This document shows, piece by piece, positions 15,731-60,182 of a DNA stretch of 64,000 nt. The notes under the pieces are model-generated. The model worked only from the letters and a program-made list of their open reading frames with translations, was not told the origin of the DNA and searched no databases. Position 1 is the stretch's first letter; each line of letters begins with the position of its first letter. Source of the DNA: Centroberyx gerrardi (lineage: Eukaryota; Chordata; Actinopteri; Beryciformes; Berycidae); NCBI RefSeq assembly GCF_048128805.1, contig NC_136000.1:9349354-9413353 (forward strand), in the 5' to 3' direction. The position numbers and the translations under genes are program-made.

Positions 15731-16063
15731 AGGGTCCCCATGCATTATCACACCCGCACTGAGAGGTGGAGCTTTACCACGTCTTCATCAGCAACAGCAG
15801 TACAGCAGGACTTTTGACGGAAACACATCCTGCAGGTCTGATGCCACGAGTGTGATTTCATTCCTGGCTGTCAGTCCTGTACCAAATGCTTTTTGGTACA
15901 GGACCAAATGCTATATGACTCCAGAGTCACATAGCCCAGTGTCAAAAGACACTTCCCCTTTCCCCAACCCAGCTGCACTGGTCACCTAGAGGGAGGGGTA
16001 TGTTTCTGCTGGTATGTCTCGCAGCAGCTCAGGAGGGAAAAAGTCAGAGTAGCATGGAAGTAG
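15731..16063 (+). pseudogene. Broken TIR-TMEM268-like copy (internal deletion, frameshifts)
   Basis: Three blocks match the intact genes downstream. At 15751-15800 there is the sequence for the start of the TIR domain ('GAGCTTTACCACGTCTTCAT'). At 15826-15867 there is the box-2 region ('CCTGCAGGTCTG', 'GAGTGTGATTTCATTCC'). At 15940-16063 there is the C-terminal tail ('AAAAGACACTTCCCCTTTCC', 'CCCAGCTGCACTGGTCACCT') through the stop. The reading frame is shifted and stopped in the first blocks. Roughly residues 80-388 are missing, replaced by about 70 bp containing a small inverted repeat (TGTACCAAA/TTTGGTACA, about 15879-15901). The downstream flank is also homologous to the 3' flanks of the intact genes, so this is an old tandem duplicate and not a retrocopy. 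Confidence 0.85.
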
Positions 16064-16910
16064 GAGTAGCAGAGGACAGTCAAAGGAAACTCCCCCAATT
16101 TATGTGACAAAAAAAAATTGAGTATTTAGAAATAATAGTACTACTGTAAACCTATATTTCTTTAGAATATGTTTTAACCTGCAGGGAGTATCAGTGTCTA
16201 AACTTAATCACACTCATTGTGTTGTCCTATGTGGTAAAACCCACCCACCTGGCACCTAAGTAGACGAAAAGAAAGTATTACCAAAAATTATATAACTCAA
16301 GACAGCTTGCTGCTTGTCAACATATTATCGGCAGACAGAAACTGAAACAAAGAAACATGCATTAACCTGCAGGGTGATGCAGCTAGCAAAATGTTGCCAT
16401 TAAAGGTACAGTTACTTTAATGACTGCACCCATGTTAGAAGTCATTCAGAAAACAAAATATAGTGTATCCCTTTAACAAAGCTCAGAACAATGTAGTGCT
16501 GATGCTTTGCATTTTTTAGGCTACTTCCTCATTGTACTGTTGCTGACCCTGCACAATAGCATCGCTATTATCAACAGGTAGGCATGACTTTTGGTTTATT
16601 TTTGTCCTCATAGGCTATTAATGATTGAACAGAACACAGCAGTATAGGACCAAGGTTGTTCAGATTACAAAGATTAATTACAGTATGGACAAAAAACTTA
16701 TGTCTTACATTTTAGTTGCTTGTCAGATGGTCATGTTTTATATACTGTATACAATTACTACATCTATACAGAGTATTTGAAAACATGCTTACAACCATAC
16801 TTTTTGATCTATGATTAGCTGTTTTTTCTGTTGCGTTATATAGTGCCAATGATTCCACAGTGACTGAAATTATGTCACATATAATGTTGGTTTTGTAATG
16901 TGGCATCATA
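16064..16910 (+). promoter_or_regulatory. 3' flank of the pseudogene and candidate first exon/promoter for TIR gene 1
   Basis: This segment is a diverged version of the spacers between the intact genes. It shares 'ATGTGGTAAAACCCACC', a CATTAAAGG poly(A)-like signal near 16398, the ACTTCCTC block at 16523-16530 and a donor-like CAG|GTAGGC at 16577/16578. It also shares the 'CATTTTAGTTGCTT' and 'TTATATAGTGC' phrases further on. If the first-exon model is right, this copy supplies the 5' UTR exon of the gene at 20261 through an intron of about 3.7 kb. Homology stops at about 16910, where a LINE fragment begins. Confidence 0.45.
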
Positions 16911-20260: not shown

Positions 20261-21532
20261 ATGGAATCTAGCAATTCGCTTGAGATTGGGTTTGAGTCAA
20301 AGCACGTTGCCCCTCTGCCTCCCTCAAGTTTCCCCCATGTCCCTCCCACACTGAGAGAGGGGGAGCTTTACCACGTCTTCATCAGCTACAGCAGTACTGA
20401 CTATTGCTGGACCCACTCCCTCATCAACAAGCTGGAGTCCTGCGGCCTGCAGGTCTGCTACCATGAGCGTGACTTCATCCCCGGCCGCACCGTGTTGGAG
20501 AACATGTCCGACTGCATCCAGGAGAGCCAGAAGGTCCTGCTGGTCCTCAGCCCGGAGTTTGTGAGGAGCCGCTGGTGTCTCCTGGAGGCCAACATGTCTC
20601 TGTTCAGAGACTGCCTGGAGAGGAAGCCCATGGTGCCAGTGCTGCTGGAGCCAGGAGTCTCTGTTCCTCTCCACCTCTGCCACCTCACCTACCTGGACGC
20701 CAGGGACCCAGACTTTATCAGTAAGGTGCTCAAGGTGCTCTGCACCCCCAACCAGCAGCTTCAAGGGTCCACTGTGGTGCCCTTCCAGCCTCCCTCTATC
20801 TACAACGGGAAGGCCCTGCAGCCTTTGACTGCTGTCAATGAGGAGGGACTCCAGAAATGGGACGCTGGTCAGTTCAGTGACATGGAGGTGCCGGACCAGC
20901 TGCGTTTGGTCATTGAGGACCAAGAGAAGTACAGAATGGCTGTGAGGAGGATCAACAGTGTTTCTCAGAATAAAGTGTGGCTGCGTCCACTCTGGCAAAG
21001 AGTAGTGATTTATATTGCCAGTGTGATATTTTTTATTGCCATGTTAGACAGTATTTCCTTTATTATAATTAACGTACTGTTTATGCAGGAGAAGATACAC
21101 ACTCCTAGTGTTATGTCATTCACTGTTTTAATTTTCTACTGTGTACCACTGGGATTGATCATTCAGATTGGTCTCTGGAAGAAAGATGATGAGAAGTATA
21201 TTGTGAGAGAGATGCAGAAAGCTGTAGGTGAAGCAAACGCAATCCTTTCTGAGGAGAAAGTGTTAATGGGCTGTCGGTCCAATATAAAAATCTATCTGGT
21301 CTATGTTTCTCTGGATGGGTGCAGACATGAGTTTGAAGAAACATTTTCTGAGCAGCTCTGTGCTGAGGAGATGTTTCAGAGAGCTCTGGTCTTCTTCTCA
21401 TCAGGATACGCCTGCTGCCTGGCCAAGAGACACTTCCCCTTTCCCCAACCCAGCTGCACTGGTCACCTAGAGGGAGGGGTGTGTTTCTGCCAGTACGTCT
21501 CCCAGCAGCTGAGCAGGGAAGAGTGGAAGTAG
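20261..21532 (+). CDS. TIR domain-two-helix membrane protein (TIR-TMEM268-like), copy 1
   Basis: One uninterrupted coding exon of 423 residues. The TIR domain is at about residues 36-163: box 1 is YHVFISYSS, box 2 is RDFIPG, followed by the SRWCLLE segment whose Glu sits where NAD-cleaving TIR enzymes keep their catalytic Glu (many signalling TIRs also have a Glu there). Residues from about 193 on, with two hydrophobic helices (about 247-273 and 287-305), the 'EKVLMGC...LVYVSLDGC' block and a Cys-rich tail ending FCQYVSQQLS, resemble vertebrate TMEM268 as I recall it. Both termini would be cytoplasmic with a short outside or lumenal loop. The start follows an acceptor (TTAG-ATA-ATG), with A at -3 and G at +4. 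This is the most diverged intact copy: it has Cys in DYCWTH where the others have Arg, and Ile in box 2 where the others have Thr. A role in innate immune signalling or NAD metabolism is inference from the TIR domain only. Confidence 0.88.
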   Translation: MESSNSLEIGFESKHVAPLPPSSFPHVPPTLREGELYHVFISYSSTDYCWTHSLINKLESCGLQVCYHERDFIPGRTVLENMSDCIQESQKVLLVLSPEFVRSRWCLLEANMSLFRDCLERKPMVPVLLEPGVSVPLHLCHLTYLDARDPDFISKVLKVLCTPNQQLQGSTVVPFQPPSIYNGKALQPLTAVNEEGLQKWDAGQFSDMEVPDQLRLVIEDQEKYRMAVRRINSVSQNKVWLRPLWQRVVIYIASVIFFIAMLDSISFIIINVLFMQEKIHTPSVMSFTVLIFYCVPLGLIIQIGLWKKDDEKYIVREMQKAVGEANAILSEEKVLMGCRSNIKIYLVYVSLDGCRHEFEETFSEQLCAEEMFQRALVFFSSGYACCLAKRHFPFPQPSCTGHLEGGVCFCQYVSQQLSREEWK

Positions 21533-22152
21533 GAGTAGCAGAGGGCAGTCATAAAAACTATGAACTTCCCAACCCCTGTAATCTCCTGTTAACAGTTAAT
21601 GTATGGGCCAAATTGTGCTAACAAGTCTCATAATTTGTTTTAACATGCAGGGAGTTTCAGACTTGTGGGGTAATTCAGACTGTTTTAAGTAATCGTCAAT
21701 CTCAAAAAAGTATACTAAATTAACTTTCAGAAATGTCCTGTTATCGTCAGAATTTCTGGCATTCAGTGTACTGTCCGATGTGGTAAAACCCACCTACCCA
21801 ACACCAAAGTAGACCAAACAAACCCTAAAAAGTATTTGCAACTATTTTTTACTCAGGTGTTTGTCGACATAGTTTTATCAACTGAGCCGACAGTTCAAAC
21901 TGGAGAGCAACTTCTGTGGCAGAGTGACGCAACAAGCAAAATGTTCCCATTAAAGCTGCAGTAACTTCAGTGACTTCATCCATAGCAGCCCTTCAGAAAC
22001 CAGAAAGCAGAGTATCTCTTTAACAAAGCTAAAAGCAGCGTAGTGAGGATGTTTTGCACTCACTACTTCCTCACAGTACTTTGGTTTTTGCTGATCCACA
22101 CAATAACATCACTCTACCATACATTTACTTCAAATTACTGTATAATGAACAG
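21533..22152 (+). promoter_or_regulatory. 3' UTR of TIR gene 1 and candidate promoter/first exon of gene 2
   Basis: The stop is followed by about 420 bp conserved between copies, up to ATTAAA at 21949-21954, a likely poly(A) signal. Within the next 200 bp come TGACGCAAC-linked and AGAAACCAGAAAGC-type sequence, an ACTTCCTC block (22065-22072, an Ets/PU.1-type core on the reverse strand) and AATGAACAG|GTATGG, a good donor at 22152/22153. With the acceptor at 23237 this gives a 5'-UTR intron of about 1.08 kb. The model is inferred from conservation across units, without transcript evidence. Confidence 0.45.
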
Positions 22153-23240
22153 GTATGGCTGTACATTTTGTGTATTTTATACTTTTAGTGAAGCTATAGT
22201 AATTATACTTTAACAAAACACAATGATATAACGGTTTTGTAGATTACAAAAGTAATGGGGGGAAAAAGCTTATATGCTATGCACCAGAGATTACATTTTC
22301 CATTTTAGTTGCTTCACTGATGGTCATCTTTATGCTGATATGTACATATACTGCATGGCTGGGTTATGTACATGTTTTATGTTTTCATATATTTTACCTA
22401 ATTACCTTTTCATAACTGTCATTAGCAACAGGTTTAAAGTGATACTTGTTTATGTATGATTAGCTGTATTTAGAGAAAGTCACTGAATTATATAGTGCTG
22501 ATGACTCCACAAGGAGTGAAATTATATTGCATATCAGGTACATGTTATAATGTGACATCATACCTGAAATTCAACTTAACCTTTGCTTTGGTTTAATGTA
22601 AAGGAATTGTGTCAACTGTAATCAACCATACCTCAAGAATAATGTGTTTTTGTGTATTAGCAGGTCAATGACTTTTGGGTTATTTCAAAAATACACTAAA
22701 AATACTTTTGCAATACAGGCATGTTGATCATACATCAGTTCAAGACACATGACCTAAATAGTTTTCTCTTCCCTGTGAATTAACATAAAGTAATGTATTT
22801 CTAAATTTCTTGGGAGATAACGGTTGACATTTTGTCTTTGATTTGTTCTTCATGACAATATTATATGAAGTAAAGTAAAAAACTATTTTACCAGCATAGC
22901 TTTTAAATTCGGTTCATATAACAATCCAAAGAAACATGATTCTGAAAGCAATGTAGCATTAATTGTAAAGGCAACGGTAATAAAAGTACTGAATTTTAAC
23001 AAGTACTTCATTGCACTTTTAGATTCCATTAAAAGTAAATTTATGATGTCACTCAGATCAGATCAGAACTCAAAGCGACAGTAATGAGCTACACCAAGCA
23101 CTAGTATGACTTCTAAATATGTTTTTTAATGATTATTGGAGCTGTACTAACTTTAAAAACATCACTATATAAAATCTTTGGAATAGATGCCTGCATTTCT
23201 AGATTTCATTATGTTCTCACTTCAGTTTTCTCTTTAGATA
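22153..23240 (+). other. Putative 5'-UTR intron of TIR gene 2
   Basis: The segment is bounded by donor GTATGG at 22153 and acceptor TCTCTTTAG ending at 23237. It is nearly identical to the segments before genes 3 and 4. The 61-codon ORF at 22274-22459 recurs in every unit only because the DNA itself is duplicated. Its hydrophobic product has no known relative and is not supported as a gene. Confidence 0.45.
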
Positions 23241-24515
23241 ATGGAACCTATCAATTCCCTTGAGACTGGAGACGACTTTGAGTCAAAGCACGTTGTCCCT
23301 CTGCCTCCCTCAAGTTGCCCCCATGTCCCTCCCACACTGAGAGAGGGGGAGCTTTACCACGTCTTCATCAGCTACAGCAGTACTGACTATCGCTGGACCC
23401 ACTCCCTCATCAACAAGCTGGAGTCCTGCGGCCTGCAGGTCTGCTACCATGAGCGTGACTTCACCCCGGGCCGCACCGTGTTGGAGAACATGTCCGACTG
23501 CATCCAGGAGAGCCAGAAGGTCCTGCTGGTCCTCAGCCCGGAGTTTGTGAGGAGCCGCTGGTGTCTCCTGGAGGCCAACATGTCTCTGTTCAGAGACTGC
23601 CTGGAGAGGAAGCCCATGGTGCCAGTGCTGCTGGAGCCAGGAGTCTCTGTTCCTCTCCACCTCTGCCACCTCACCTACCTGGAGGTCAGGGACCCAGACT
23701 TTATCAGTAAGGTGCTCAAGGTGCTCTGCACCCCCAACCAGCAGCTTCAAGGGTCCACTGTGGTGCCCTTCCAGCCTCCCTCTATCTACAACGGGAAGGC
23801 CCTGCAGCCTTTGACTGCTGTCAATGAGGAGGGACTCCAGAAATGGGACGCTGGTCAGTTCAGTGACATGGAGGTGCCGGACCAGCTGCGTTTGGTCATT
23901 GAAGACCAAGAGAAGTACAGAATGGCTGTGAGGAGGATCAACAGTGTTTCTCAGAATAAAGTGTGGCTGCGTCCACTCTGGCAAAGAGTAGTGATTTATA
24001 TTGCCGGTGTGATGTTTGTTTTTGTCATAACAGCTTTCATTTTATATATGACAGTAATACTGTTGACAGGTGAAAAGATAAACCTTCCTGGTGTTAGGTC
24101 ATTCACCGTTTTAATTTTCTTCTGTGTACCATTGGGATTGATCATTCAGATTAGTCTCTGGAAGAAGGATGAAGAGAAGTATATTTTGAGGGAGATGCAG
24201 AAAGCTGTAGGTGAAGCAAACACAATCCTTTCTGAGGAGAAAGTGTTAATGGGCTGTCGGTCCAATACCAAAATCCATCTGGTCTATGTTTGTCTGGATG
24301 GTTGCAGACGTGAGTTTGAAGAAACATTTTCTGAGCAGGTCTGTGCTGAGGAGATGTTTCGAAGAGCTCTGGTCTTCTTCTCATCAGGATACGCCTGCTG
24401 TCTGGCCAAAAGACACTTTCCCTTTCCCCAACCCAGCTGCACTGGTCACCTAGAAGGAGGGGTGTGTTTCTGCCAGTACGTCTCCCAGCAGCTGAGCAGG
24501 GAAGAGTGGAAGTAG
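23241..24515 (+). CDS. TIR domain-two-helix membrane protein (TIR-TMEM268-like), copy 2
   Basis: A single coding exon of 424 residues. TIR domain about 38-165: box 1 YHVFISYSS at 39-47, RDFTPG at 72-77, WCLLE at 107-111. The linker at 166-195 is Pro/Gln-rich. The TMEM268-like part, about 195-418, starts with 'GLQKWDAGQFSDMEVPDQLR', then helix 1 (about 249-275), a short loop with TGEKINLPGVR, helix 2 (about 288-306) and a basic WKK stop. It continues with the amphipathic 'REMQKAVGEANTILSEEKVL' and 'VYVCLDGC' blocks and a tail with several Cys. Up to residue 249 it differs from copy 4 essentially at one position (Val149 for Ala). The helix-loop block differs from every other copy. It is preceded by TCTCTTTAG-ATA-ATG, so the start is well placed. 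No signal peptide is visible, consistent with a cytosolic TIR. Confidence 0.9.
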   Translation: MEPINSLETGDDFESKHVVPLPPSSCPHVPPTLREGELYHVFISYSSTDYRWTHSLINKLESCGLQVCYHERDFTPGRTVLENMSDCIQESQKVLLVLSPEFVRSRWCLLEANMSLFRDCLERKPMVPVLLEPGVSVPLHLCHLTYLEVRDPDFISKVLKVLCTPNQQLQGSTVVPFQPPSIYNGKALQPLTAVNEEGLQKWDAGQFSDMEVPDQLRLVIEDQEKYRMAVRRINSVSQNKVWLRPLWQRVVIYIAGVMFVFVITAFILYMTVILLTGEKINLPGVRSFTVLIFFCVPLGLIIQISLWKKDEEKYILREMQKAVGEANTILSEEKVLMGCRSNTKIHLVYVCLDGCRREFEETFSEQVCAEEMFRRALVFFSSGYACCLAKRHFPFPQPSCTGHLEGGVCFCQYVSQQLSREEWK

Positions 24516-25125
24516 GAGTAGCAGAGGACAGTCATAAAAACTATGAACTTCCCAACCCCTGTAATCTCCTGATAACAGTTAATGTATGGGCCAAATTGTG
24601 CTAACAAGTCTCATAATTTGTTTTAACATGCAGGGAGTTTCAGACCTGTGGGGTAATTCAGACTGTTTTAAGTAATCGTCAATCTCAAAAAAGTATACTA
24701 AATTAACTTTCAGAAATTTCCTGTTATCGTCAGACTTTCTGGCATTCATTGTACTGTCCGATGTGGTAAAACCCACCTACCCAACACCAAAGTAGACCAA
24801 ACAAACCCTAAAAAGTATTTGCAACTATTTTTTACTCAGGTGTTTGTCGACATAGTTTTATCAACTGAGCCGACAGTTCAAACTGGAGAGCAACTTCTGT
24901 GGCAGAGTGCAAAATGTTCCCATTAAAGCTGCAGTAACTTCAGTGACTTCATCCATAGCAGCCCTTCAGAAACCAGAAAGCAGAGTATCTCTTTAACAAA
25001 GCTAAAAGCAGCGTAGTGAGGATGTTTTGCACTCACTACTTCCTCACAGTACTTTGGTTTTTGCTGATCCACACAATAACATCACTCTACCATACATTTA
25101 CTTCAAATTACTGTATAATGAACAG
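24516..25125 (+). promoter_or_regulatory. 3' UTR of TIR gene 2 and candidate promoter/first exon of gene 3 (altered)
   Basis: This is nearly identical to the flank after gene 1, with ATTAAA at 24922-24927 and ACTTCCTC at 25038-25045. Two changes matter for the first-exon model. Ten bases (ACGCAACAAG in the sister units) are missing just after 24908. The donor-like GT after AATGAACAG is CT here (25126-25127). Either gene 3 uses another donor, is poorly spliced, or the first-exon model is wrong for this position. Confidence 0.45.
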
Positions 25126-26215
25126 CTATGGCTGTACATTTTGTGTATTTTATACTTTTAGTGAAGCTATAGTAATTATACTTTAACAAAACACAATGAT
25201 ATAACGGTTTTGTAGATTACAAAAGTAATGGGGGGAAAAAGCTTATATGCTATGCACCAGAGATTACATTTTCCATTTTAGTTGCTTCACTGATGGTCAT
25301 CTTTATGCTGATATGTACATATACTGCATGGCTGGGTTATGTACATGTTTTATGTTTTCATATATTTTACCTAATTACCTTTTCATAACTGTCATTAGCA
25401 ACAGGTTTAAAGTGATACTTGTTCATGTATGATTAGCTGTATTTAGAGAAAGTCACTGAATTATATAGTGCTGATGACTCCACAAGGAGTGAAATTATAT
25501 TGCATATCAGGTACATGTTATAATGTGACATCATACCTGAAATTCAACTTAACCTTTGCTTTGGTTTAATGTAAAGGAATTGTGTCAACTGTAATCAACC
25601 ATACCTCAATAATAATGTGTTTTTGTGTATTAGCAGGTCAATGACTTTTGGGTTATTTCAAAAATACACTAAAAATACTTTTGCAATACAGGCATGTTGA
25701 TCATACATCAGTTCAAGACACATGACCTAAATAGTTTTCTCTTCCCTGTGAATTAACATAAAGTAATGTGTGTATTTCTAAATTTCTTGGGAGATAACAG
25801 TTGACATTTTGTCTTTGATTTGTTCTTCATGACAATATTATATGAAGTAAAGTAAAAATATTTTACCAGCATAGCTTTTAAATTCAGTTCATATAACAAT
25901 CCAAAGAAACATGATTCTGAAAGCAATGTAGCATTAATTGAAAAGGCAACTGTAATAAAAATACTGAATTCTAACAAGTACTTCATTGCATTTTTAGTTT
26001 CCATTAAAAGTAAATTTATGATGTAACTCAGATCAGATCAGAACTCAAAGTGACAGTAATGAGCTACACCAAGCACTAGTATGACTTCTAAATATGTTTT
26101 TGAATGATTATTGGAGCTGTACTAACATTAAAAACATCACTATATAAAATCTTTGGAATAGATGCCTGCATTTCTAGATTTCATTACGTTCTCACTTCAG
26201 TTTTCTCTTTAGATA
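25126..26215 (+). other. Putative 5'-UTR intron of TIR gene 3
   Basis: Homologous to 22153-23240, with scattered substitutions and a 4-bp TGTG insertion near 25770. It ends in acceptor TCTCTTTAG at 26212. It contains no independent gene. The 83-codon minus-strand ORF at 25753-26004 is not kept open in the sister units. Confidence 0.45.
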
Positions 26216-27490
26216 ATGGAACCTATCAATTCCCTTGAGACAGACGACTTTGAGTCAAAGCACGTTGTCCCTCTGCCTCCCTCAAGTTGCCCCCATGTCC
26301 CTCCCACACTGAGAGAGGGGGAGCTTTACCACGTCTTCATCAGCTACAGCAGTACTGACTATCGCTGGACCCACTCCCTCATCAACAAGCTGGAGTCCTG
26401 CGGCCTGCAGGTCTGCTACCATGAGCGTGACTTCACCCCCGGCCGCACCGTGTTGGAGAACATGTCCGACTGCATCCAGGAGAGCCAGAAGGTCCTGCTG
26501 GTCCTCAGCCCGGAGTTTGTGAGGAGCCGCTGGTGTCTCCTGGAGGCCAACATGTCTCTGTTCAGAGACTGCCTGGAGAGGAAGCCCATGGTGCCAGTGC
26601 TGCTGGAGCCAGGAGTCTCTGTTCCTCTCCACCTCTGCCACCTCACCTACCTGGAGGCCAGGGACCCAGACTTTATCAGTAAGGTGCTCAAGGTGCTCTG
26701 CACCCCCAACCAGCAGCTTCAAGGGTCCACTGTGGTGCCCTTCCAGCCTCCCTCTATCTACAACGGGAAGGCCCTGCAGCCTTTGACTGCTGTCAATGAG
26801 GAGGGACTCCAGAAATGGGACGCTGGTCAGTTCAGTGACATGGAGGTGCCGGACCAGCTGCGTTTGGTCATTGAAGACCAAGAGAAGTACAGAATGGCTG
26901 TGAGGAGGATCAACAGTGTTTCTCAGAATAAAGTGTGGCTGCGTCCACTCTGGCAAAGAGTAGTGATTTATATTGCCGGTGTGATGTTTGTTTTTGGCAT
27001 GACAGGTTTAATTCTATTCATGACACTTGAAATACTGATAAATGATGAGAAGATAAGCCCTCCTGGTGTTAGGACATTCACTGTTTTAATTTTCTTCTGT
27101 GTACCATTGGGATTGATCATTCAGATTAGTCTCTGGAAGAGGGATGATGAGATGTATATTTTGAGAGAGATGCAGAAAGCTGTAGGTGAAGCAAACACAA
27201 TCCTTTCTGAGGAGAAAGTGTTAATGGGCTGTCGGTCCAGAACCAAAATCTATCTGGTCTATGTTTCTCTGGATGGGTGCAGACGTGAGTTTGAAGAAAC
27301 ATTTTCTGAGCAGGTCTGTGCTGAGGAGATGTTTCAAAGAGCTCTGGTCTTCTTCTCATCAGGATACGCCTGCTGCCTGGCCAAAAGACACTTCCCCTTT
27401 CCCCAACCCAGCTGCACTGGTCACCTAGAGGGAGGGGTGTGTTTCTGCCAGTACGTCTCCCAGCAGCTGAGCAGGAAAGAGTGGAAGTAG
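26216..27490 (+). CDS. TIR domain-two-helix membrane protein (TIR-TMEM268-like), copy 3
   Basis: A single coding exon of 424 residues with the same layout as copy 2: TIR about 37-164 with YHVFISYSS, RDFTPG and WCLLE; Pro/Gln-rich linker; TMEM268-like membrane and tail part. One residue is missing near the N-terminus (TDDFESK where copies 2 and 4 have TGDDFESK), and one is gained in the loop (ILINDEKISPPGVR). It ends SRKEWK where the others end SREEWK. Helix 1 reads VMFVFGMTGLILFMTLEIL, so it begins like copy 2 and then diverges. The coding exon is intact, but its candidate upstream donor is mutated, so expression may differ from its sisters. Confidence 0.9.
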   Translation: MEPINSLETDDFESKHVVPLPPSSCPHVPPTLREGELYHVFISYSSTDYRWTHSLINKLESCGLQVCYHERDFTPGRTVLENMSDCIQESQKVLLVLSPEFVRSRWCLLEANMSLFRDCLERKPMVPVLLEPGVSVPLHLCHLTYLEARDPDFISKVLKVLCTPNQQLQGSTVVPFQPPSIYNGKALQPLTAVNEEGLQKWDAGQFSDMEVPDQLRLVIEDQEKYRMAVRRINSVSQNKVWLRPLWQRVVIYIAGVMFVFGMTGLILFMTLEILINDEKISPPGVRTFTVLIFFCVPLGLIIQISLWKRDDEMYILREMQKAVGEANTILSEEKVLMGCRSRTKIYLVYVSLDGCRREFEETFSEQVCAEEMFQRALVFFSSGYACCLAKRHFPFPQPSCTGHLEGGVCFCQYVSQQLSRKEWK

Positions 27491-28160
27491 GAGTAGCAGA
27501 GGACAGTCATAAAAACTATGAACTTCCCAACCCCTGTAATCTCCTGTTAACAGTGTAATCTGAGCCATTTGAATTGGTTTGTAGATGTAATACCCCTTAC
27601 TGCAAGCTTACATTTTCTGTTAGAAATGAGTCATGGCTCATAATTTGTTTTAACATGCAGGGAGTATCAGACTTGTGGGGTAATTCAGATTGTGTCAAGT
27701 AATTGCCAATCTCAAAAAAGCATACAAAATTATCTTTCAGAAATGTCCTGCAATTGTCAGACTTGGCATTCAGTGTACTGTCCGATGTGGTAAAACCCAC
27801 CTACCCAACACCAAAGTAGACCAAACAAACCCTAAAAAGTATTTGCAACTATTTTTTACTCAGGTGTTTGTCGACATAGTTTTATCAACTGAGCCGACAG
27901 TTCAAACTGGAGAGCAACTTCTGTGGCAGAGTGACGCAACAAGCAAAATGTTCCCATTAAAGCTGCAGTAACTTCAGTGACTTCATCCATAGCAGCCCTT
28001 CAGAAACCAGAAAGCAGAGTATCTCTTTAACAAAGCTAAAAGCAGCGTAGTGAGGATGTTTTGCACTCACTACTTCCTCACAGTACTTTTGGTTCTTGCT
28101 GATCCACACAATAACATCACTCTACCATACATTTACTTCAAATTACTGTATAATGAACAG
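27491..28160 (+). promoter_or_regulatory. 3' UTR of TIR gene 3 and candidate promoter/first exon of gene 4
   Basis: The flank resembles those after genes 1 and 2, except that about 27554-27640 carries a different sequence ('GTAATCTGAGCCATTTGAAT' onward), so one segment has been replaced. ATTAAA is at 27956-27961 and ACTTCCTC at 28072-28079. The donor-like AATGAACAG|GTATGG is intact at 28160/28161, and the bases absent before gene 3 are present. Confidence 0.45.
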
Positions 28161-29251
28161 GTATGGATGTACATTTTGTGTATTTTATACTTTTAGTGAA
28201 GCTATAGTAATTATCCTTTAACAAAACACAATGATATAACAGTTTTGTAGATTACAAAAGTAATGGGGGGAAAAAGCTTATATGCTATGCACCAGAGATT
28301 ACATTTTCCATTTTAGTTGCTTCACTGATGGTCATCTTTATGCTGATATGTACATATACTGCATGGCTGGGTTATGTACATGTTTTATGTTTTCATATAT
28401 TTTACCTAATTACCTTTTCATAACTGTCATTAGCAACAGGTTTAAAGTGATACTTGTTTATGTATGATTAGCTGTATTTAGAGAAAGTCACTGAATTATA
28501 TAGTGCTGATGACTCCACAAGGAGTGAAATCATATTGCATATCAGGTACATGTTATAATGTGACATCATACCTGAAATTCAACTTAACCTTTGCTTTGGT
28601 TTAATGTAAAGGAATTGTGTCAACTGTAATCAACCATACCTCAATAATAATGTGTTTTTGTGTATTAGCAGGTCAATGACTTTTGGGTTATTTAAAAAAT
28701 ACACTAAAAATACTTTTGCAATACAGGCATGTTGATCATACATCAGTTCAAGACACATGACCTAAATAGTTTTCTCTTCCCTGTGAATTAACATAAAGTA
28801 ATGTGTGTATTTCTAAATTTCTTGGGAGATAACAGTTGACATTTTGTCTTTGATTTGTTCTTCATGACAATATTATATGAAGTAAAGTGAAAACTATTTT
28901 ACCAGCATAGCTTTTAAATTCGGTTCATATAACAATCCAAAGAAACATGATTCTGAAAGCAATGTAGCATTAATTGTAAAGGCAACGGTAATAAAAGTAC
29001 TGAATTTTAACAAGTACTTCATTGCATTTTTAGATTCCATTAAAAGTAAATTTATGGTGTAACTCAGATCAGATCAGAACTCAAAGTGACAGTAATGAGC
29101 TACACCAAGCACTAGTATGACTTCTAAATATGTTTTTGAATGATTATTGGAGCTGTACTAACATTAAAAACATCACTATATAAAATCTTTGGAATAGATG
29201 CCTGCATTTCTAGATTTCATTATGTTCTCACTTCAGTTTTCTCTTTAGATA
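28161..29251 (+). other. Putative 5'-UTR intron of TIR gene 4
   Basis: Homologous to the introns before genes 2 and 3, ending in acceptor CTCTTTAG at 29248. No independent gene is seen. The recurrent 61-codon ORF at 28282-28467 follows the duplication. Confidence 0.45.
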
Positions 29252-30526
29252 ATGGAACCTATCAATTCCCTTGAGACTGGAGACGACTTTGAGTCAAAGC
29301 ACGTTGTCCCTCTGCCTCCCTCAAGTTGCCCCCATGTCCCTCCCACACTGAGAGAGGGGGAGCTTTACCACGTCTTCATCAGCTACAGCAGTACTGACTA
29401 TCGCTGGACCCACTCCCTCATCAACAAGCTGGAGTCCTGCGGCCTGCAGGTCTGCTACCATGAGCGTGACTTCACCCCGGGCCGCACCGTGTTGGAGAAC
29501 ATGTCCGACTGCATCCAGGAGAGCCAGAAGGTCCTGCTGGTCCTCAGCCCGGAGTTTGTGAGGAGCCGCTGGTGTCTCCTGGAGGCCAACATGTCTCTGT
29601 TCAGAGACTGCCTGGAGAGGAAGCCCATGGTGCCAGTGCTGCTGGAGCCAGGAGTCTCTGTTCCTCTCCACCTCTGCCACCTCACCTACCTGGAGGCCAG
29701 GGACCCAGACTTTATCAGTAAGGTGCTCAAGGTGCTCTGCACCCCCAACCAGCAGCTTCAAGGGTCCACTGTGGTGCCCTTCCAGCCTCCCTCTATCTAC
29801 AACGGGAAGGCCCTGCAGCCTTTGACTGCTGTCAATGAGGAGGGACTCCAGAAATGGGACGCTGGTCAGTTCAGTGACATGGAGGTGCCGGACCAGCTGC
29901 GTTTGGTCATTGAGGACCAAGAGAAGTACAGAATGGCTGTGAGGAGGATCAACAGTGTTTCTCAGAATAAAGTGTGGCTGCGTCCACTCTGGCAAAGAGT
30001 ACTAATCTACATTGCTGTTCTGATATTATTAGTATTCTTAACATTCATCCCTACATTTTTGTCAGTTGCATTAATGGGAGACGAAAGTGGGTTAGACCCA
30101 CCTGCTGTGGACTCACCTGCTCTGTTAATTTTCTTCTGTGTACCATTGGGATTGATCATTCAGACTGGTCTCTGGAAGAAGGATGACGAGAAGTATATTT
30201 TGAGGGAGATGCAGAAAGCTGTAGGTGAAGCAAACACAATCCTTTCTGAGGAGAAAGTGTTAATGGGCTGTCAGTCCAATAAAAAAATCTATCTGGTCTA
30301 TGTTTGTCTGGATGGGTGCAGACGTGAGTTTGAAGAAACATTTTCTGAGCAGGTCTGTGCTGAGATGTTTCAAAGAGCTCTGGTCTCCTTCTCATCAGGA
30401 TACGCCTGCTGCCTGGCCAAGAGACACTTCCCCTTTCCCCAACCCAGCTGCACTGGTCACCTAGAGGGAGGGGTGTGTTTCTGCCAGTACGTCTCCCAGC
30501 AGCTGAGCAGGGAAGAGTGGAAGTAG
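29252..30526 (+). CDS. TIR domain-two-helix membrane protein (TIR-TMEM268-like), copy 4
   Basis: A single coding exon of 424 residues. Residues 1-250 match copy 2 almost exactly, including most silent positions. At about position 30001 the DNA changes abruptly: helix 1 becomes VLIYIAVLILLVFLTFIPTF and the loop becomes MGDESGLDPPAVDSP, the most different version in the array. Identity resumes at ALLIFFCVPLGLIIQ. In the tail one Glu is missing (QVCAEMF, where the others have QVCAEEMF) and FFSSGY is SFSSGY. The TIR motifs YHVFISYSS, RDFTPG and WCLLE are intact. The 3' flank leaves the repeat within about 15 bp of the stop, so this is the terminal unit and must use an unrelated poly(A) site. Confidence 0.9.
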   Translation: MEPINSLETGDDFESKHVVPLPPSSCPHVPPTLREGELYHVFISYSSTDYRWTHSLINKLESCGLQVCYHERDFTPGRTVLENMSDCIQESQKVLLVLSPEFVRSRWCLLEANMSLFRDCLERKPMVPVLLEPGVSVPLHLCHLTYLEARDPDFISKVLKVLCTPNQQLQGSTVVPFQPPSIYNGKALQPLTAVNEEGLQKWDAGQFSDMEVPDQLRLVIEDQEKYRMAVRRINSVSQNKVWLRPLWQRVLIYIAVLILLVFLTFIPTFLSVALMGDESGLDPPAVDSPALLIFFCVPLGLIIQTGLWKKDDEKYILREMQKAVGEANTILSEEKVLMGCQSNKKIYLVYVCLDGCRREFEETFSEQVCAEMFQRALVSFSSGYACCLAKRHFPFPQPSCTGHLEGGVCFCQYVSQQLSREEWK

Positions 30527-51493: not shown

Positions 51494-51674
51494 TCCGCTT
51501 TACGCACACGCTGTCTGAAATTTGATTCGAGTTTAAAAAGCACCAGCAGCAGCCACAAGCCAGAGACCACTGAGTCCTGTCCTTTCAGCATCAGGTAGCT
51601 CCATATAGGGAGAGGAGAGGCACTTCGCAGCCCCTCTGGCTCTATCTGGGTAAAGCGCACAGAGGGGCAGTGCC

Positions 51675-53705
51675 ATGCACACTCCTGACCATGCGCTGCT
51701 CCTGAGCGGAGTGAACCAGTCTCAGATTTTCAGTCCCACTTATGACCCGACGATGGGGACACCTGACAACCACACCGTCCACCCCAACGGAACCGACCCG
51801 TTTGCCAGAAACGAAGAGGTGGCCAAAATCGAAATCACGGTCCTGAGCATCACCTTCGTGGTCGCTGTGATCGGGAATGTGAGCGTGCTGCTGGCAATGT
51901 ACAACACCAAGAAAAAGATGTCTCGGATGCACCTTTTCATCAAGCACCTCAGCCTGGCCGACTTGGTGGTCGCCTTCTTCCAGGTGCTGCCGCAGCTCTT
52001 CTGGGAGATCACCTACCGCTTCTACGGGCCAGACTTCCTCTGCAGGATAGTCAAGCACCTTCAGGTGATGGGCATGTTCGCGTCCACCTACATGATGGTG
52101 ATGATGACCGTGGACCGCTACATCGCCATCTGCCACCCTCTGAAGACCCTCCAGCAGCCCACCAAGCGCTCCTACATCATGATCGTCTCCACGTGGATGT
52201 GCAGCCTGGTGCTCAGCTTGCCTCAGTACTTCATCTTCTCCCTGAGCGAGATCAAGAACGGCTCGGACGTCTACGACTGCTGGGGCCACTTCATCGAGCC
52301 GTGGGGCGTCAAGGCGTACATCACCTGGATAACCTTGGGCATCTTCCTCGTCCCCGTGGCCATTCTCATGATCTGCTACGGGTTCATCTGCCACAGCATA
52401 TGGAAAAATATCAAATACAAGACTAGGAAAACAACGGCGGGCGCTGCGGCCAAGAACGGGCTGATTGGGAAGAATTCCGTCAGCAGCGTCACAACTATAT
52501 CAAGAGCCAAATTGAGGACAGTGAAAATGACTTTTGTGATCGTTTTGGCGTACATAGTGTGCTGGGCGCCGTTTTTTACAGTGCAGATGTGGTCGGTGTG
52601 GGATGAAAACTTCCAGTGGGATGGTGAGTAGTGGGGTGGTAATATTTGATGTTAAGTTGATCTCTAGTGAATTTTAAACTGTCACAGCGACCCGAATGAT
52701 ATAAAATGTAACAATAGAAGAACTGTGCACAGAAAGCCTTTGGTCATTTGCCACAAAATGGAAAACTGTGCGCAAACCTGAAAGAAATCCAATTGCGCAT
52801 CGCCATTACGCATGAGTTTACTTGTTACCAAAAACAAATAGATGCTCAAATATATTTCATTTGAACGAAGGTTATCAGAATTGAATTGTTTAATCTTATT
52901 TAGTGTCTAAATTCAGCCCAGTAAACAATACGTTTGCCATGTGTTGTGCAATGAGGGAATTCTGCAGCACTGGGGTTTCAGCCAGCGCAATTGATTTTTA
53001 CACTGTATAAAATGCCCGTCTTGAAAGTTATGTAGTCTTATAGGCCTATTCGGTATTAAATCTTATTTTTCTGATGATTTTCTGTGATAAACCTAATTCC
53101 TGTTGTTTCATTTTTTTTTTCTGGATACAGTGTCGGCTACCTGCAAGACTGAATTAGGCAAATCACTTCACTAGTATCAAGAAAATAGACACTTGATTCA
53201 AGAAGATTCTTGAAATAAGTTTGATTTGCACTGGAAACAAGTTACATTTTGTTGTTAATCTGGCATTTCTTTTCACTTGTATTAAGAAAAATAAGATGTT
53301 AAGTCTCAATATCAGACCAAATGACTTGGACATTTTTGCAGTGTAGGCTATACCAGATGTTTTGCGGGTTGATCATCGTTTTTCCCCTCCCTTCCCTCTC
53401 TCTCTCCTCTAGACTCTGAGAACACAGCAGTGACTCTGTCTGCGCTCCTTGCCAGTCTCAACAGCTGCTGTAACCCTTGGATATACATGATCTTCAGCGG
53501 TCATCTCCTCCAGGACTTTGCCCACTGCTTCTCCTGCTGTCGTAAAATGAACACTGATTTCAAGAAAGAGGACTCAGACAGCAGCATCCGAAGAACGACA
53601 CTATTGACTAAAATGACCAATCGGAGCCCTACGTGCAGCTCTGGCAACTGGAGAGAGCTGGACAACTCTCCCAAGTCCTCCATCCCGTCCATCCAAGCGG
53701 AGTAA
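51675..53705 (+). CDS. Arginine vasotocin/vasopressin V1a-type receptor (two exons)
   Basis: The coding sequence joins 51675-52623 and 53413-53705 (GATG|GTGAGT donor, CCTCTAG|ACT acceptor, split Asp codon) and gives 413 residues. It is a class A GPCR. The N-terminus has glycosylation sequons at N14, N32 and N38, and an Arg (R45) in RNEEVAKIE at the place of the ligand-contact Arg of mammalian V1a. It has '[16 protein letters not shown]' in TM2, DRYIAICHP after TM3, CWAPFF in TM6 and NPWIY in TM7. Palmitoylatable Cys lie in HCFSCC, with a Ser/Thr-rich tail (NRSPTCSSG). The length and the TM6-TM7 intron are those of the V1 receptor genes. Members bind vasotocin/vasopressin and act through Gq, phospholipase C and calcium at the plasma membrane. 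Wording such as '[16 protein letters not shown]' and '[11 protein letters not shown]' favours V1a over V1b, V2 or the oxytocin receptor. Which teleost paralogue (avpr1aa or avpr1ab) is undecided. A later in-frame Met at residue 27 is possible but would lose the first sequon. Confidence 0.95.
53150..53345. mobile_element. Truncated relative of the upstream MITE, in the avpr1a intron
   Basis: The right end ATTTTTGCAGTGTA (to 53345) and the interior match the element at 51112-51493: 'GATTCAAGAAGATTCTTGAA', then a related 'TTTGCACTGGAAACAA' stretch, then an AAGAAAAATA stretch. The left terminus is not recognisable. The same 18-bp heat-shock-type motif is preserved at 53197-53214. Confidence 0.7.
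53197..53214. promoter_or_regulatory. Second perfect heat shock element sequence (intronic)
   Basis: TTCAAGAAGATTCTTGAA is identical to 51302-51319 although the surrounding element copies have diverged. The match to TTCnnGAAnnTTCnnGAA is complete. Confidence 0.5.
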
Positions 53706-56109: not shown

Positions 56110-59085
56110 ACAAGCCTGTTGTATTGTTCTGAAAAGCTGGTGAGGAACAGTTTTCAAAGTTTTCCTCACCATAACTTTGAACTGTCCCAACCCCCTGCCT
56201 CCTCTATGGCTCATTTTATCTCTGACCCCCTGACCTCACACCACACGGGCCAGACATGCCTGGCAGTCCTATCGTAAAGATGTATGGGCAGAGAAGTCCT
56301 ACAGGACATTCTTTCTCTAGCTGTGATTGTGTCAAATGGGGCAAAATAAGCCGAGCCCTGCCATATCAGATAGTGTTGTCATTCTCTGGAATAAAAAGGA
56401 GGATAAAACAAGCAACTGGCAGCCATGGCCGGCATAAACTTGGTTCACTGGGGTCATGAGGCTACAGTCTCTAATTAGAGGGCAGTGTGGCAGGAATATC
56501 CCTGCAGGTCTGATGGACATATCTCAAATTCCCAGTCTAGCACCCACTCTGCATTGCATCAGGCATGCCAATCATCAAGCCAAATCATGGCTCTGAAAGT
56601 TTGCTTGGGCTAAGGTCACCAGTCAGAGTCTAGACTGAGCAAATATTAAGAAGTCGGAGCTTGAGGTTCTCCAGAGATATTGGCAAACAGCATGTAATTC
56701 CAGTGAAGTTGTTGGAAAACAGACATATCATATTATAAGGATCATAAAAGCATGGTCATGGAATATTTGCTTTGAATTTAATGCCATATATCTTCCACCG
56801 AGCTGACTGAATTTACCGATGGTGAACATAGTTGGGTTCCTTCTATTCGCTGCTACATCTCTCTGCAAAATAAAATGTATTTCCTCTGCCAGTGACAAAG
56901 CATCAGTTTCATCATTGGTTTCCTCTGTACATTCATCCATTTTTACTTTGTGACAACACAATACAAAAGAAATTCAGTTGCTACTCCACGACCGAGCCTC
57001 TCATTCATAACAACTAGATTCTGAGCAGATGAGATGAATGCAGAAACAAAGATAAATGGATCTGACAGAGGTCTGTGAAGTGCTTACATTTCCTCAGGAA
57101 CAAAGCCCTCCATACCCTTTGTGTGTTTTATGTATGGGATACCTCGGGCAAAAACAGAGGTGGAGGGAAGTGCCTTGTTGAAAAAAACAAAAAAACAAGC
57201 AGAACAGATCAGAGATACGAGCAGCACAAGCATGGGAGCTCGAACTTCTCTCAGGCATGAAACACAACTTCAAGCAGTTTGTTGTTTACTGGCAAACCCC
57301 TCCACCTTGCAAGCGTCTTAAAAAACTGAAAGAACGGCAGTGCTAACAGAGAAATACTGTCTTCCATCAAGAGGGATGATGCCTGGGACATCGCTGAGAT
57401 TGTTTAGATTATGAAACCTTCTGGTCATGTGAGACAAGCTCCAAGAAGATGCATGCCAATTTTTCTGCTTCCATACTTAGTAGGTAAACAACCTCCACTG
57501 CGTTTTCCTTACAGGAAACAAGTCCTGTCCTCTGTTACTGTCTGGACAATTGTGTCCAGCGTTGTCTTCCCTTCACCTTACACCCCGGCCTTCCCTTCAC
57601 ACAGTACAGAAACGGTTATTGGAAGGCCACTTTAAGCTAAACAGGCTAAAAAAAAAAAAGTCAGGGAAATGTTTAGAACTGACAATTGTGGATTAGACAT
57701 CAACAAGTCTTTAATACAGGAAGTTCCTCCAGCACCCTGGTGGTCTTGTGATCAGAGGACCTTGATGAGACCAGGCTCTCTCGCAGCATGTCTTCCTCCT
57801 CTCCACGCAGCCTCCCTCTTCCTGCTCTATTGTTCTGCTTCAGTTGTCCTTAAAAAATAACACGCATATCTATTTACCATCAGCATTTTTAATTACTCCC
57901 CAGCGGTCATACAGTTTATATAAACAAGCATGTTTAAACAAGCCATTACACAAAATTTGGATTAGATGAAAATGGGTCCCAAAAAATTCTCTGTAGAAAT
58001 TGCGAAATCCCAAATCTTGACAATGTAAGGAAGGCAGAACAAAATGCTCCAGGTTAGGTTAGTCTAACAACACTACACTTTGGTTGATAAGCCTATACAA
58101 AATGGCCCACAACACCAGTTTTGGCTCGCAAGAAATATAATCTTGAAAATGTGGGTCCCTCTGAGGAAGAGTTAGATAACCACTGCTATCTAGCTCATCC
58201 AAGTTCTCTTCAACCGTTATCTGTCCAGAGAAGGTTTGCTCAGCATGGTCTTTTTTCAGCCAATGCATTGCTTGCCATCCATACTGTTTGCTTCCCAAAA
58301 CCTGTGTGTAGCTGTGACTCTATTGTCTACCGGCAGTCTCAACTGTCAGCGTATTCTTTGCTCAGCACCGTGTCCATAAGTTATTGTTTCCTAGAAGCAA
58401 GGGCTTCAGATTCCTGGAAGGCTGTCCGACTTTGCAGAAAATACTGAACCGCATCCAATGTTACGCAAGTCAGGCAAGAATGATGCCTTCTGCCCTTTGA
58501 GTTGCAGGCAATCAGAAATGAAGAACAGCTGGTATTAGAGATTTGAACCAACGACATATTTATTGAAAACATACGTTCATAGGAATATAATTGATCAAAG
58601 TCTACCCGATAAGGTATAATTGCGCATCTGTGCTTTACATGTTGTTTACGGAGGCTGTGAAGTGACACGCTAGGTTTTTCACAGAAGCGGAAAGGCCATA
58701 GGAAAAGTTTATTAATCAAAAACAGGCTTTGATGTGCCTTTGGATCACAGCATGAAGTCCTATGTAGGCTGCACACAGATGATTGGCTTTCTCTGTGAGC
58801 CTAAAAGCCAGGTGGGAATCAAAGGCAGTGAGCGAGCTGAGATAGAGGCTGCTGGACCTGCTATCTGCTCCCACAGCCAGCCTCTGTTCATCACCCCGGG
58901 CTTCAAAAACAGAGTTCAGAGACCATGTGTGAAACCAAACCTATAACTGAAGTAGTACATTCCTGGATACCTGACAGGCATAAGTTCAACAATGTCATTT
59001 AGTACTTTTATCCACAGCGGATACACATATATATAAATATATTTACACAAAGTTTTCAAAGTTTTATTATTTGTGATATAAGTAA
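56110..59085. other. Gene-free stretch
   Basis: No gene is supported. ORFs of up to 131 codons (58381-58776 -, 58121-58447 +) overlap in antiparallel and show no recognisable domain, and no paired splice sites were found. Confidence 0.45.
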
Positions 59086-59140
59086 CTCTCTCTCTCTCTC
59101 TGCCTCTCTCTCTCTCACACACACACACCTACCACCTCTC

Positions 59141-59209
<69 letters not shown>

Positions 59210-59289
59210 GCCTCTCTCTCTCTCACACACACACACCCACCACCTCTCTCTCTCTGTCTCTCTCTGTCTCTCTCTCTCACACACACACC

Positions 59290-59350
<61 letters not shown>

Positions 59351-59418
59351 GCCACCTCTGTCTCTCTCTGTCTCCCTCTCTCACACACACACCACCTCTC
59401 TCTCTCTCTCTCTGTCTC

Positions 59419-59457
<39 letters not shown>

Positions 59458-59570
59458 CTCACTCTCACTCTCTTTCTCTTACACACACACCACCTCTCTC
59501 TCTCGGTCTCTCTCTGTCTCTCTTTCTCTTACACACACACCACCTCTCTCTCTCTGTCTCTCTCTGTCTC

Positions 59571-59627
<57 letters not shown>

Positions 59628-59718
59628 CACCACCTCTGTCTCTCTGTCTCTCTCTGTCTCTCTTTCTCTTACACACACACCACCTCTCTCTCTCTGTCTC
59701 TCTCTGTCTCTCTCTCTG

Positions 59719-59754
<36 letters not shown>

Positions 59755-59840
59755 CCACCACCTCTCTCTCTCTCTGTCTCTCTCTCTCACACACACACAC
59801 CACCTCTCTCTCTGTCTCTCTCTCTCACACACACACCACC

Positions 59841-59884
<44 letters not shown>

Positions 59885-59950
59885 GCCACCTCTGTCTCTC
59901 TCTGTCTCTCTCTCTCACACACACACCACCTCTCTCTCTCTCTCTCTGTC

Positions 59951-59991
<41 letters not shown>

Positions 59992-60182
59992 CTCACTCTA
60001 TTTCTCTTACACACACACCACCTCTCTCTCTCTCTGTCTCTCTCTGTCTCTCTTTCTCTTACACACACACCACCTCTCTCTCTCTGTCTCTCTCTGTCTC
60101 TCTTTCTCTTACACACACACCACCTCTCTCTCTCTGTCTCTCTCTGTCTCTCTTTCTCTTACACACACACACACCACCACCA
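59086..60182. repeat. 1.1-kb composite TC/CA satellite
   Basis: Blocks of (TC)n interrupted by GTCTC, a short (CA)n and the spacer CACCACCTCTC repeat about 15 times. A clearer sub-unit of about 50 bp ('TTACACACACACCACCTCTC' then TCTGTCTCTCTCTGTCTCTC and TTTCTC) recurs at about 59480-59540 and 60010-60165. All the Arg/Glu-rich or Val/Cys-rich minus-strand open frames here are products of this repeat. Confidence 0.92.

Follow-up and report, generated by a model that had tools for sequence, protein, structure and literature searches.

The array described here lies in a 64,000-nucleotide stretch of the genome of Centroberyx gerrardi (contig NC_136000.1; referred to as the window, to which all coordinates apply) and comprises four tandem coding exons for two-pass membrane proteins, each composed of an N-terminal TIR domain, a linker, a two-helix hairpin and a cysteine-containing tail. 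Between tandem copies, in the window as well as in 11 other species, the hairpin diverges, whereas the TIR domain, the linker and the greater part of the tail remain alike. A reading that we put at slightly below an even chance is that these proteins represent a ray-finned-fish family in which a constant, TLR1/2-like TIR domain at the N-terminus is joined to a diversified, TMEM268-related hairpin that would choose partners or sense at the membrane.

A preliminary description of this DNA had reported intact coding exons amplified in tandem, with an N-terminal TIR domain, a two-pass membrane segment and a cysteine-containing tail, all of which was borne out. The hypervariability of the hairpin, together with the constancy of the sequence around it, is a new point beyond that description.

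Hypervariable hairpins in otherwise uniform tandem copies

Four intact open reading frames were identified between positions 20261 and 30526 of the plus strand (Table 1), each containing a terminal stop only and each consisting of a single coding exon. The tandem units are located approximately 3 kb apart (spacings of 2986, 2972 and 3039). The DNA between the units is 94–98% identical and includes long stretches without any difference, and the TIR domain and linker are 97–100% identical in protein between the array copies. Within these near-identical units, divergence is confined to about 100–130 bp encoding the hairpin, where 17–55% of sites differ between copies. In the two adjacent 50-column bins that cover the hairpin, the number of differing sites was 17/97 (copies 2 and 3), 33/97 (1 and 2), 34/100 (1 and 3), 46/97 (2 and 4), 49/100 (3 and 4) and 55/100 (1 and 4); of the 50 sites in the flanking bins, 0 or 4 differ before the hairpin and 1 to 8 after it. 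In alignment A1, one row is a mis-started fragment of copy 4. Since the copies are nearly identical save for the hairpin, they resemble a small repertoire built from a constant part and a variable one.

The same pattern was found in 35 pairs of sister copies from 12 species (C. gerrardi and 11 others), in which divergence amounts to 0.44–0.80 in the hairpin and 0.00–0.06 in the TIR domain, with a maximum at residues 261–290 (73–83% mismatch). The multi-copy species were chosen by name among the listed matches, not by a census, and the 120-row alignment of the family left out rows outside 395–455 aa as well as P0129 and P0168. In total, 36 pairs from 13 species were aligned; a pair from Lates calcarifer was dropped before the divergence profile and the comparison described below.

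For 34 proteins, the nearest sister copy was compared with the nearest named protein from another genus. The sister copy was nearer in 30 cases for the TIR domain (with 2 ties), 23 for the linker (2 ties), 26 for the tail (no ties) and 12 for the hairpin (1 tie). The pool consisted of 102 rows, 18 unnamed ones having been dropped, and the same-genus proteins P0082 and P0119 were not counted as other genera. Hairpin types often match another genus better than they match the sister copy. The hairpin of Cheilinus P0054, for example, is 82% identical to one of Labrus mixtus and 45% identical to that of its nearest sister, and the hairpin of Sebastes P0022 is 47% identical to one of Epinephelus and 16% identical to that of its nearest sister, although the TIR domain of this protein is 100% identical to that of its sister. 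Some hairpin types are 82–85% conserved between wrasse genera, which suggests constraint within a type.

The ratio of nonsynonymous to synonymous substitution rates (dN/dS) for the hairpins of the four window copies is 1.18 (bootstrap interval 0.82–1.78), compared with 0.48 for the tail; the TIR domain and linker hardly differ. If the hydrophobic class of each residue alone were kept, 0.61–0.77 of amino-acid-changing mutations would be expected to pass. Despite the divergence, hydrophobic character is retained at most hairpin positions. The ratio leans to diversifying selection and is suggestive of it, without amounting to proof. Synonymous divergence (dS) in the hairpin is 0.337, approximately 28 to 42 times that of the linker and TIR domain, so the hairpins are old and were seemingly spared from conversion.

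The TIR domain

All four copies pass the Pfam TIR_2 profile (PF13676) with 74.8–75.4 bits against a cut-off of 28, and the match spans residues 37–151 of about 424. The domain is present in 95 of the 95 family members scanned. A search of the C. gerrardi genome with the same profile placed the four array copies as the top 4 of 22 matches, followed by a match of 72.5 bits in a 958-aa frame on C5. The two other TIR domains of this genome closest to that of the array are 44% and 41% identical to it, and belong to what we take to be a TLR2-like and a TLR1-like protein, respectively. The closest solved TIR domains by sequence are those of TLR15/2 and TLR1. Structure prediction, which the preliminary description had proposed as a check, supported the TIR fold: the top Foldseek matches of the predicted model were TLR1 TIR domains (3.1e-6), at modest model confidence (predicted local distance difference test, pLDDT, mostly 54–78 in the TIR domain).

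The array proteins therefore resemble the TLR1 subfamily (TLR1, 2, 6, 10 and 15) in their nearest solved TIR domains, by sequence and by Foldseek. TLRs carry a C-terminal TIR domain behind leucine-rich repeats and one membrane helix, whereas that of the array proteins is N-terminal and followed by two helices; moreover, a Pfam scan of the copies at E<=1 found no leucine-rich repeats, so that they do not have the make-up of a Toll-like receptor. The same scan at E<=1 gave no match to a death domain, such as a MyD88-type adaptor would have. With SIGIRR, TIRAP and MyD88 the array proteins may share a mode of action, namely TIR-TIR contact without an ectodomain of their own, but they differ in being two-pass proteins with a variable hairpin and no death-domain match. 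Another animal protein in which a TIR domain is fused to a further domain is oyster TIR-STING (sequence match, 2.4e-14); its partner domain, however, is STING.

Relationship of the hairpin and tail to TMEM268

In all four copies, the TIR domain is followed by a two-helix hairpin and a cysteine-containing tail, an order also found in TMEM268 (C9orf91). The suggestion made earlier that the second half of the protein is TMEM268-like held at the level of the family but not for the window copies taken singly. The latter score 18.7, 12.4, 16.8 and 13.3 bits (copies 1–4) against DUF4481 (PF14800), below the cut-off of 25, and a PF14800 search of the C. gerrardi genome, which gave 10 matches at E<=10, did not recover them. 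Across the family, 57 of 95 members match this profile at E<=0.1 (best, 7.3e-6). When six relatives were scored singly, P0024 alone passed (26.0 bits), and in three relatives the match extends from the hairpin into the tail.

The TMEM268 gene of C. gerrardi is located on a chromosome other than that of the array (C19:18315124-18321931) in at least 7 separate matching pieces. A profile of the hairpin and tail built from 120 family rows matched its joined exons over 85 columns with a score of 41.8 (P 1.9e-5); the best of 200 shuffled sequences scored 24.2 and the reversed sequence 14.8. This match indicates that the array proteins are related to TMEM268 by descent, and by profile comparison that protein is a distant relation of the hairpin and tail; because the copies fall below the Pfam cut-off, we term them TMEM268-related and not TMEM268. 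They also depart from TMEM268, a multi-exon gene without a TIR domain, in having a TIR domain and in having one coding exon; the difference in exon number suggests that a retrocopy or intron loss may have arisen in an ancestor. Modelled alone, the hairpin and tail reached a mean pLDDT of 78.7; compared with PDB entries, the model gave nothing better than E 1.2, a missing match that does not mean a new fold.

DUF4481 is the Pfam name for the TMEM268 domain, and human TMEM268 is described as having two membrane helices and nine exons (PMC6748091). TMEM268 is reported to bind CD11b, to keep it from degradation and to aid bacterial clearance by mouse phagocytes (PMC11169502). By analogy, this role makes an immune-cell setting plausible for the array family, for which it is itself no evidence.

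Distribution of the family

A search with the copy 2 protein matched 244 proteins, of which the best 120 were examined. Most named proteins among the listed matches are fish proteins called "uncharacterized protein", of similar length, with a TIR domain and mostly 65–79% identical; four gene models bear the name Toll-like receptor 1 or 2. The same architecture, always with the TIR domain, was found in shad (P0181), alligator gar (P0179) and paddlefish (P0175), and salmonids and percomorphs also carry it. Its occurrence in other teleosts, for which the preliminary description had proposed a search, is thus established and extends to gar and paddlefish. No tetrapod, shark or zebrafish protein was among the matches listed in three family searches, two of which covered 120 matches each; this does not show true absence.

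Judged from these sequences, the architecture is widespread in ray-finned fish and old, rather than a local or recent fusion: its presence in gar and paddlefish makes it as old as the split between paddlefish and teleosts, which took place more than 300 million years ago. An ancestor without a TIR domain, considered on account of the paddlefish protein P0139 (230 aa, no TIR), was rejected, as P0173 (86% identical to the paddlefish-based probe) has a TIR domain and paddlefish P0175 is full length. Some gene models (P0113, P0118 of Mugilogobius, P0001 and P0002) merge two adjacent copies into one long protein, so that arrays of this family are probably under-annotated. A literature search, in which most subscription papers lay outside its reach, returned no paper pairing a TIR domain with TMEM268 or describing an N-terminal TIR domain with a transmembrane segment in teleosts, and broader searches of titles and abstract beginnings returned nothing on the TIR-hairpin-tail architecture.

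Possible function and alternative explanations

Both ends of the protein are probably located in the cytosol, as judged from the flanking charges. In the mechanism we propose, gene conversion would homogenize the units, while selection for differing hairpins would keep the hairpin stretch from being overwritten. The hairpin would be the recognizing or partner-selecting part, acting inside the membrane or on its distal side. Contact at the hairpin would gather the proteins, and their constant TIR domains could then contribute to MyD88-type TIR assemblies or block them. The tail, being TMEM268-like, may retain the protein on a route taken by receptors or in trafficking, in the way that TMEM268 acts with integrins. 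A bolder form of this proposal, which we consider possible but on the doubtful side, is that the family is an unnamed innate repertoire whose variable recognizing part is a transmembrane hairpin instead of an extracellular domain. Different hairpins would be placed on one constant TIR output, conversion would copy the output part, and selection would hold the hairpins apart over periods exceeding those since genera separated. What is recognized would be situated in the membrane or across it (a pathogen membrane protein, a pore, or the membrane portion of different host receptors).

Several observations weigh against a diversified, recognizing hairpin. In the Lates calcarifer pair, the hairpins are 100% identical and the TIR domains 99.2%. 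The 12 of 34 proteins whose hairpin is nearest to that of a sister include three of the four window copies, and for the hairpin of copy 4 the sister and other-genus matches are about level. The hairpin dN/dS does not clearly exceed 1, the pairs from which it was derived are not independent, and the high hairpin dS reflects age as much as selection. Finally, no NF-kB-type site was found upstream of the copies, and sites resembling the interferon-stimulated response element (ISRE) occur upstream of copy 1 only, at 16338 and 19758.

A simpler explanation is that the hairpin merely holds the protein in the membrane and drifts under weak constraint, conversion keeping the rest alike, while the TIR domain acts as a constitutive modulator of TLR signaling like SIGIRR or TIRAP. 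The hydrophobic character retained at most hairpin positions, the dN/dS interval reaching down to 0.82 and the TLR-like TIR domain are what such an anchor would show. The estimated dN/dS exceeds the range expected for hydrophobic drift, however, and the conservation of hairpin types between wrasse genera suggests constraint within a type; furthermore, conversion across the whole unit should overwrite a neutral hairpin too, yet the divergent island persists in 12 species. We regard this explanation as a serious one, though unlikely.

The variation could also be a side effect if the hairpin could be spliced out of the coding exon as an in-frame intron, so that soluble and membrane-bound forms are made. 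Gene models from four species (P0002, P0012, P0090 and P0111) skip the hairpin at one junction, P0155 omits part of the copy 4 hairpin, and in-frame donor and acceptor letters occur in all four copies, 222–225 nt apart. However, gene models are predictions and other models cut at different places, the Gln on the acceptor side varies among family members, and in-frame spacing is expected for aligned coding sequence; such an isoform switch seems improbable. We give about as little credit to the view that the protein is a membrane-bound enzyme whose TIR domains, on hairpin-triggered clustering, deplete nicotinamide adenine dinucleotide (NAD) or make a signal, as in SARM1 and bacterial or plant TIR proteins. 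With SARM1-type TIR NADases the array protein has in common the TIR fold and a WxxxE pattern, W107 and E111 being invariant in 95 rows. This glutamate is not diagnostic for a TIR NADase because TLRs have it too, and no SARM1 chain was among the sequence matches to solved chains at E<=1. Least credible of all is that the array is an assembly artefact or a set of decaying copies: identical long stretches do occur between units and one relic copy is present, but none of the four frames is interrupted, the copies have different hairpins, and conservation of the TIR domain extends from paddlefish to percomorphs.

If variable hairpins do direct a constant TIR domain, a widespread fish family now called "uncharacterized", or TLR1/2 in a few models, would be a TIR system tethered to membranes and equipped with a variable module of its own. 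This would add a way of diversifying innate recognition and provide unstudied candidate genes for fish immunology, including in farmed carriers such as sea bass, groupers and sea breams. The arrays also serve as a natural experiment on why a single short segment repeatedly resists gene conversion.

Organization of the array and its upstream DNA

Probable 5' exons, or counterparts of them, were located approximately 1.1 kb upstream of the coding exons of copies 2 to 4, and a diverged counterpart nearly 4 kb upstream of copy 1 (Table 1). The C. gerrardi gene model P0155 (LOC139929746) corresponds to copy 4, since this copy and no other is matched exactly by its first 255 coding residues plus another 19. 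The 5' exon of copy 4, at which P0155 begins, has a hydrophobic start and can be read through in the frame of the coding exon, which is not the case for copies 2 and 3, where the frames disagree. Splicing of copy 3 may differ, because its donor position reads CT and not GT. The start of another C. gerrardi database protein, P0012, is unlike all four copies, though the genome TIR search lists four near-identical copies only; perhaps copy number differs between haplotypes.

Table 1. Coordinates of the array copies, their hairpin blocks and upstream features.
Feature	Position	Strand	Remarks
Degenerate fifth copy	~15763-16042	+	TIR pieces 15763-15804 and 15830-15868; tail piece 15944-16042; stops and deletions; located by tblastn searches of the window with copy 2 and P0155
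Diverged upstream block and possible 5' exon of copy 1	16211-16577	+	GT follows at 16578; 68% identical to inter-copy block; nearly 4 kb upstream of copy 1
Copy 1 coding exon	20261-21532	+	423 aa; TIR 20375-20707, then hairpin and tail
Hairpin block, copy 1	21020-21166	+	Hypervariable
Probable 5' exon of copy 2	22049-22152	+	GT donor next; homologous to P0155 5' exon
Copy 2 coding exon	23241-24515	+	424 aa; TIR 23361-23693, then hairpin and tail
Hairpin block, copy 2	24006-24149	+	Hypervariable
5' exon counterpart for copy 3	25022-25125	+	CT at 25126-25127 in place of donor GT
Copy 3 coding exon	26216-27490	+	424 aa; TIR, hairpin, tail
Hairpin block, copy 3	26978-27124	+	Hypervariable
5' exon of copy 4, as in P0155	28056-28160	+	GT donor next; 35/36 residues identical, the last one spanning the junction
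Copy 4 coding exon	29252-30526	+	424 aa; TIR, hairpin, tail
Hairpin block, copy 4	30017-30163	+	Hypervariable

In the array copies an acceptor-like sequence, TTTTCTCTTTAG, is located directly 5' of ATAATGG; the version in copy 1 is TTTTCTCTACTTAG. In gene model P0155, the exon at 28056-28160 is joined to this site. A shared leader with alternative exons, suggested by the acceptor-like site before each ATG, was set aside, as a separate upstream block containing a 5' exon counterpart belongs to each unit. For the same reason, separate genes are the simpler reading, and the units look like separate genes, although splicing across units is conceivable.

An ISRE-like sequence, GAAACTGAAAC, occurs at 16338 on the plus strand, within the diverged block that precedes copy 1, and was not found before the other copies. 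An immune-inducible promoter is disfavoured, although not conclusively, by the lack of NF-kB-type sites and the restriction of ISRE-like ones to copy 1.

Other features of the window

No match was obtained in the viral structure library at E<=0.001 or in Rfam at the gathering threshold, and ARAGORN detected no tRNA. A long low-complexity stretch of CT/CA repeats (59003-60252) contains long open frames in several phases and by its appearance is no gene. The first exon of a vasopressin V1a-type receptor gene was identified at 51654-52628 on the plus strand (7tm_1; closest solved chain, the vasopressin V1a receptor, 1.2e-122).

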